Origin: a virus | Reading direction: 5' to 3' (one strand) | Virus record (IMG/VR): IMGVR_UViG_3300009156_000062 | Location: 1 to 33,467 of that record | DNA: 33,467 nt | Part shown: piece by piece, positions 28,132-28,976 of the stretch | Layout of the letters: each line of letters starts with the position of its first letter | Numbering within the stretch: the first letter of the stretch is position 1 | Program-made: the position numbers and the translations under genes | Notes under the pieces: model-generated | Told to the model about the DNA's origin: nothing | Databases searched by the model: none | What the model saw: the letters and a program-made list of their open reading frames with translations, nothing else

Positions 28132-28524
28132 CTACCCTTCGCCGGTCTTGTTCTCGGCCGCCAGCCGCTTCTTCTCGGCCGCCTCGGTGTCGGCGTGCAC
28201 CCGCCGGCGGATGTCGCGCAGCTTGCGCGCGAGCGCGACGAACAGGCGGACGTTCGTGCGCCGCTGGTGCGGAGTCTCGTCGCAGAACTGGCTATCGACC
28301 CACGCGCAAGCCGATTCCGGCACGTGGTGGTCGTAGTCGCCATCGAGCAACGTGAACCACGCCACCCACTCCCAGAACGACGCCCAGACTCGGTTCAGGG
28401 ACGAGTCGACCGTCGGCCTGTCGGACCACCCGGGAACGAACTCGCCGGGGGACCGCCTCGCTTGCAGCTCTAGCGCGTCTCGGACGTCGCCGCACTCGTG
28501 CTGCCATTCGAGTGCAGCCGCAAG
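28132..28524 (-). CDS. T extension of G-T tail assembly chaperone
   Basis: This frame lies -1 relative to the G gene and continues it past the G stop. After slippage at 28524-28530 the product reads ...LGN-LAAALEWQHECG..., with 130 residues ending KTGEG. Added to 151 residues of G this gives a fusion of about 281 residues. The frame also has an ATG at 28566, but the overlap and slippery site argue that it is made by frameshifting. As in lambda G-T, the fusion should hold the tape measure protein during tail assembly. Confidence 0.85.
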   Translation of the reverse strand, partial: LAAALEWQHECGDVRDALELQARRSPGEFVPGWSDRPTVDSSLNRVWASFWEWVAWFTLLDGDYDHHVPESACAWVDSQFCDETPHQRRTNVRLFVALARKLRDIRRRVHADTEAAEKKRLAAENKTGEG

Positions 28525-28976
28525 TTTCCCAGGCTGGCCTCGTAGGCGAGCGTCTGCTGCGTCCAATCACCGAGCGCCCGGCTGAGGATCGCCGACTTCA
28601 GGTCGGCGAGATCGGGGTCGTGGTAGATCCGGAGGCCCTGCGTCTCCTCGTAGGTCGTGTCCGGCGCCGTGGACCACTTCACGTCCAGCAACACGGTTCG
28701 CGCGAAGGCGCGAGCGGCCCACTCGGTATGAAGCTCGGGCGGGATGTCGGCGCCCGGCGGCAGCGCGTGCTCCGACAGGAACACCGCGCGCTCCTTGGTC
28801 GTTCGCTCGGCGCCGAGTCGCGCCACAAGGAACTGGTCGCCGCGCAGCGTGATCCAGACGCCGTCGTTGGCGGCGCCGTGGTGGATCCGGTGCGCCTTGA
28901 AGATGTCGACCGGCTTCGGTCGGGGAGGCGCCTCGGTCGGGATCGGGGCGGGGACTGCGTTGGCGTCGTGGGTCAT
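28470..28976 (-). CDS. tail assembly chaperone, G-like
   Basis: 168 residues, starting MTHDANAVPAPIPTEAPPRP. It contains VDIFKAHRIHHGAANDGVWI, GADIPPELHTEWAARAFART and SAILSRALGDWTQQTLAYEA, and ends in a short polar tail (TSAATSETR) past the frameshift site. It lies between the tail tube and the tape measure genes, the fixed position of lambda-type G chaperones. The 26 bases before its ATG hold no gene. It is unrelated in sequence to lambda G as far as can be seen; the call rests on position, overlap and the slip site. Confidence 0.82.
   Translation of the reverse strand: MTHDANAVPAPIPTEAPPRPKPVDIFKAHRIHHGAANDGVWITLRGDQFLVARLGAERTTKERAVFLSEHALPPGADIPPELHTEWAARAFARTVLLDVKWSTAPDTTYEETQGLRIYHDPDLADLKSAILSRALGDWTQQTLAYEASLGNLRLHSNGSTSAATSETR
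28489..28530 (-). promoter_or_regulatory. -1 programmed ribosomal frameshift site
   Basis: Slippery GGGAAAC (28524-28530) lies in phase G-GGA-AAC in the G gene, the X-XXY-YYZ rule. Five bases later a stem of 10 bp (GCTGCACTCG with CGAGTGCGGC, including one G-T pair; 28509-28518 and 28489-28498) with a 10-base loop begins. Spacer and stem fit known -1 frameshift stimulators. Slippage joins G to T in the observed frames. Confidence 0.9.

Follow-up and report, generated by a model that had tools for sequence, protein, structure and literature searches.

A slippery heptamer near the 3' end of a tail gene in the phage represented by IMG/VR record IMGVR_UViG_3300009156_000062 very probably directs a programmed -1 ribosomal frameshift, by which this siphophage would produce both of its tail assembly chaperones, G and G-T. 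This reading was based on the phase of the heptamer, the switch of coding frame behind it, the match of the joined protein to a known family, the retention of the heptamer in distantly related loci, and the tube - G - T - tape measure synteny. The pair is a divergent new example of a well-known phage recoding event, and the heptamer itself, GGGAAAC, has already been known from the phages KL1, Colossus, and HCTV-1; the well-studied mechanism thus gains a divergent case and is itself left unchanged.

Tail gene order of the phage

The window, namely the whole stretch of 33,467 bases analyzed herein, has a GC content of 68% and is classed as linear, and most genes of its tail region are located on the minus strand. 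In the order of transcription, this strand encodes a head-tail adaptor (32094-33467; phrog_477, PF20557), a neck/tail completion protein (31209-31685; phrog_169), the tail tube protein directly upstream of G (29003-30316; PF18906 Phage_tube_2, E = 1.1e-6; phrog_290, E = 4.6e-25), G, the T extension, a tape measure protein of 677 amino acids (26089-28122), a DUF2460 protein (24830-25876), a phiJL001 gp84/BR0599 hub protein (22488-23342), and a large Rcc01698-like tail protein (18647-22024). The tape measure protein was assigned from its position before DUF2460 and from the similarity of its C-terminal part to a protein encoded in MW202864 (tblastn, 6e-8), which is annotated there as a 'minor tail protein' and which we presumed to be a tape measure protein. 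Since the DUF2460, gp84/BR0599 hub, and Rcc01698-like proteins belong to the distal-tail families of the Rhodobacter gene transfer agent (RcGTA), the phage was regarded as a siphophage whose tail tip is of the GTA type.

Some further features of the window were also recorded. The adaptor ORF runs off the contig end, and its match to phrog_477 and PF20557 spans only approximately residues 277-404 of the 457 amino acids, the remainder being unmatched. Three plus-strand ORFs (13361-14602, 14606-15193, and 15193-16914; together 13361-16914) are found amid the mostly minus-strand genome, the first of which matches virion and baseplate proteins (phrog_20556, phrog_9534). In the non-structural part, a minus-strand ORF (3199-4191) matches PF07505 DUF5131 (E = 4.6e-65) and phrog_2045 (E = 4.6e-76).

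Slip site and change of coding frame

The zero-frame tail assembly chaperone gene G (28470-28976, minus strand) is an ORF for 168 amino acids, the product of which also matches the profile of the G proteins of its relatives. Near its 3' end, the heptamer G_GGA_AAC (28530-28524, minus strand) lies in the exact X_XXY_YYZ phase of G, as the initial annotation had proposed, with the G-frame codons reading ...AGC CTG GGA AAC TTG...; this is the phase required by simultaneous slippage in the P and A sites. The zero-frame stop of G is located 51 nt past the heptamer, and the last 17 residues, LRLHSNGSTSAATSETR, which are encoded beyond the slip site, are present in the unshifted product only.

Downstream of the heptamer, a 5-nt spacer, TTGCG (28523-28519, minus strand), is followed by a putative stimulatory hairpin (28518-28489, minus strand) with a 10-nt loop and a stem of 10 bp, formed by the arms GCUGCACUCG (28518-28509) and CGAGUGCGGC (28498-28489) and including one G-U pair. 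A 10-bp stem 5 bases behind the heptamer, within a site spanning 28489-28530, had been noticed earlier, and the folding agreed with this. Folding of the 44 nt including the heptamer gave a minimum free energy of -18.5 kcal/mol and a z-score of -2.5, with 5 of 200 shuffled sequences being equally good; a 91-nt segment adopted a different fold with a z-score of only -1.3. Considering this drop in the wider segment and the GC content of 68%, the hairpin is real on paper and only moderately better than chance.

The likelihood of meeting such a heptamer fortuitously was estimated from random 33-codon stretches composed of the phage's own codons, of which 1.8% contained an in-phase X_XXY_YYZ (Y = A/T) and 0.8% a heptamer of the type GGGAAAC/G or AAAAAAC/G. 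The neighboring genes (3497 codons) contained just one further such heptamer, the in-phase GGGAAAG in the tube gene (29795-29801, minus strand). Its -1 frame is open into the frame of G, and the arginine-rich translation up to that frame looks non-coding, so that this heptamer was rejected as probably due to chance.

The -1 frame entered at the slip site encodes the 130 residues of the T extension (LAAALEWQ...NKTGEG; 28132-28524 including the stop, minus strand) at 28524-28135 and ends with a stop codon at 28134-28132, only 9 nt before the tape-measure ATG (28122), the frame of which it shares. The 130-residue frame reaching to just before the tape measure gene was hence exactly as initially annotated; in fact, all structural statements of the initial annotation held, the minus strand having gone unstated in it. 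Upstream, the T frame stays open as far as 28566, and its overlap with the frame of G amounts to 94 nt. In this genome, the GC content at third codon positions is approximately 0.9 in the coding frame, and in the shared 94 nt this signature shifts from the frame of G to that of T, indicating that T is a real coding frame. Consistently, the log-likelihood of the codon-position composition was -401 with a frame switch vs. -490 and -506 without it. The best position for the switch lay 18-29 nt past the heptamer and not precisely on it, and the conserved T motif GKLxxxLxW is encoded in this very stretch. With a -1 frameshift at 28524-28530, the predicted G-T fusion (28132-28976, minus strand) comprises 281 amino acids and has its junction at residue 151.

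Alternatively, G and T might be separate genes, with T being translated after re-initiation or from a non-ATG start in the overlap and the heptamer being present by coincidence, and the opening of the T frame at 28566, where a TTG is found, would be compatible with this. This TTG is, however, not accompanied by a Shine-Dalgarno sequence, and from 28566 onward the T frame contains no ATG as a start codon, and neither ATG nor GTG before mid-T, the other GTG and TTG codons being located only well inside T. T thus lacks a plausible start of its own.

Joined protein and conservation of the site in distant relatives

In profile searches, neither G alone nor T alone matched a known family, whereas the joined G-T protein matched the 'tail assembly chaperone' family PHROG 8233 at E = 4.2e-6, the matching residues 24-203 extending across the junction at residue 151. 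This match was lost both for G joined to a shuffled T and for a shuffled G joined to T. The window T had no Pfam match, its score for Phage_TAC_18 (PF23812) not reaching the curated cut-off, and among Pfam and PHROGs the window proteins showed no family match to lambda-type chaperones. The chaperones accordingly become recognizable once the two frames are joined at the slip site, and this allowed us to identify tail chaperones in a phage whose G and T are singly devoid of database annotation. The designation of the product as a G-T tail chaperone in the initial annotation was well supported by this match of the joined product, and also by the assignment of the T protein of the closest relative described below to Phage_TAC_18. 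Moreover, the PHROG 8233 profile itself represents a fusion, which argues against two separate genes.

Searches for G, T, the tube, and the tape measure with peptide patterns in viral contigs and with tblastn in phage records yielded no relatives, and blastn of 26089-33467 gave no matches. Because G, T, and the tube gave no direct matches, relatives were reached via the distal tail genes. For the window G and T, which have no close homologue in the searched collections, conservation was hence assessed on relatives of approximately 20-30% identity. Profile comparison with hhalign nevertheless connected the window G with the G proteins of the relatives, which correspond to the PHROG 313 tail assembly chaperone (E = 2.7e-7), and the window T with their T proteins (E = 1.4e-5). 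A scan of the genome collection with G of MW202864 and of the closest relative gave no matches, and the corresponding viral scan retrieved just the closest relative itself and one contig with an identical G; the alignment of T was too diverged for use as a search query. An AlphaFold2 model of G built from four sequences was too poor for use (pLDDT 41).

As a strict C-terminal tape-measure motif selected one locus only, the position before DUF2460 was used instead, and the 47 loci having an intact tape measure gene there and enough upstream sequence were counted. A locus was scored as positive when an in-phase heptamer was located near the end of the upstream ORF and the -1 frame reached about the start of the tape measure gene. 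Comparison of the site in relatives carrying the equivalent genes, the check suggested in the initial annotation, revealed that GGGAAAC or AAAAAAC is kept at the equivalent place and phase in 42 of these 47 distant DUF2460-type loci, the other five being without such a heptamer. For 60 random pairs of permuted heptamers as a control, the mean was 1.07 and the maximum 13 loci. When joined at 30 to 50% identity, the G proteins of the positive loci formed ten groups. Considering this conservation across ten groups together with the start codons and the fusion profile, the assignment of G and T to separate genes is very unlikely.

Hairpins varied among the relatives, being strong in some, and several GGGAAAC relatives were without a strong one. 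This variability agrees with the report that RNA structures frequently, though not invariably, accompany frameshift sites (PMC3483164).

The closest locus (L004; IMG/VR contig 3300037042_000130) resembles the window in having a PF18906 tube gene (E = 1.6e-27), the sequence GGGAAAC TTG..., a short tape measure gene, and DUF2460. Its T belongs to the curated tail-chaperone family PF23812 Phage_TAC_18 (E = 1.1e-11), and its upstream gene G is assigned to the PHROG 313 tail assembly chaperone. The start of T reads GKLVAVLQWQ in this relative vs. GKLAAALEWQ in the window; the identity to the window proteins is only approximately 22% for G and 31% for T.

The same comparison bears on the possibility that the frame change stems from an indel introduced into the viral contig during sequencing or assembly, the natural gene being a plain fusion. 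A single-base error would likewise switch the coding frame; the break, however, coincides with a canonical heptamer that recurs in relatives assembled independently, and many GGGAAAC relatives (among loci L002-L153) possess a zero-frame stop immediately after it (GGGAAAC TGA), which makes an indel extremely improbable. Just as improbable is transcriptional slippage at the heptamer in place of ribosomal frameshifting: polymerase slippage on homopolymer runs is used by some bacterial genes, but runs of three, as in GGGAAAC, are too short for it to be efficient, and the conserved phase fits tandem tRNA slippage.

Proposed mechanism and comparison with known systems

In the programmed -1 ribosomal frameshift that we propose, the efficiency of slippage would be such that most ribosomes read G through to its stop and yield the 168-amino-acid protein, while some would pause at G_GGA_AAC, presumably delayed by the hairpin behind the 5-nt spacer. 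Stepping back by one base, the tRNAs for Gly and Asn would then pair with GGG and AAA, and the slipped ribosomes would translate 130 codons in the -1 frame to give the 281-amino-acid G-T protein. By analogy with lambda, the G part may coat the tape measure protein, to which G-T, the less abundant product, may bring tail tube subunits via its T part.

The slippery heptamer of lambda is G_GGA_AAG, the slip codon thus being AAG there and AAC in the window. All 42 sites kept in the relatives end in AAC, and the AAG forms were found in none, although a single group of G proteins supplies 28 of these sites. We therefore raise, tentatively and as a somewhat doubtful generalization, that phages with GTA-type tails may as a rule shift their chaperones on heptamers ending in AAC; if so, it would be tRNA-Asn, not tRNA-Lys, that sets the ratio of G to G-T in the hosts of these phages, in contrast to E. 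coli phages.

The conserved frameshift of the lambda G and G-T chaperones was described by Xu, Hendrix and Duda (2004), as cited in PMC5009743. The lambda G protein binds to the tape measure protein, and recruitment of tube subunits falls to the less abundant G-T by way of its T part (PMC5009743); the site, gene order, and protein families of the window are consistent with this scheme. As found or predicted for the window, the genes are arranged in the order tube, G, T, and tape measure, the -1 shift occurs near the 3' end of G, and T is without a start.

The characterization of the site as a textbook case was apt. Both the heptamer and the mechanism have precedents in lambda-like phages, KL1, Colossus, and HCTV-1. 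In Burkholderia phage KL1, GGGAAAC with a predicted hairpin downstream, as in the window, has been described for the equivalent gene pair gp18/gp19 (PMC3483164). A zero-frame TGA directly follows the heptamer of KL1, whereas the stop lies 51 nt further on in the window, and unlike in the window, one extra gene precedes the tape measure gene. GGGAAAC has also been reported for the equivalent gene pair of HCTV-1 (PMC5009743). Among the Caulobacter phages, the chaperone genes before the tape measure gene carry AAAAAAC in phiCbK and GGGAAAC in Colossus (PMC3556154); the heptamers and their place, which the comparison covered, match those of the tail loci described above, and these phages are much larger.
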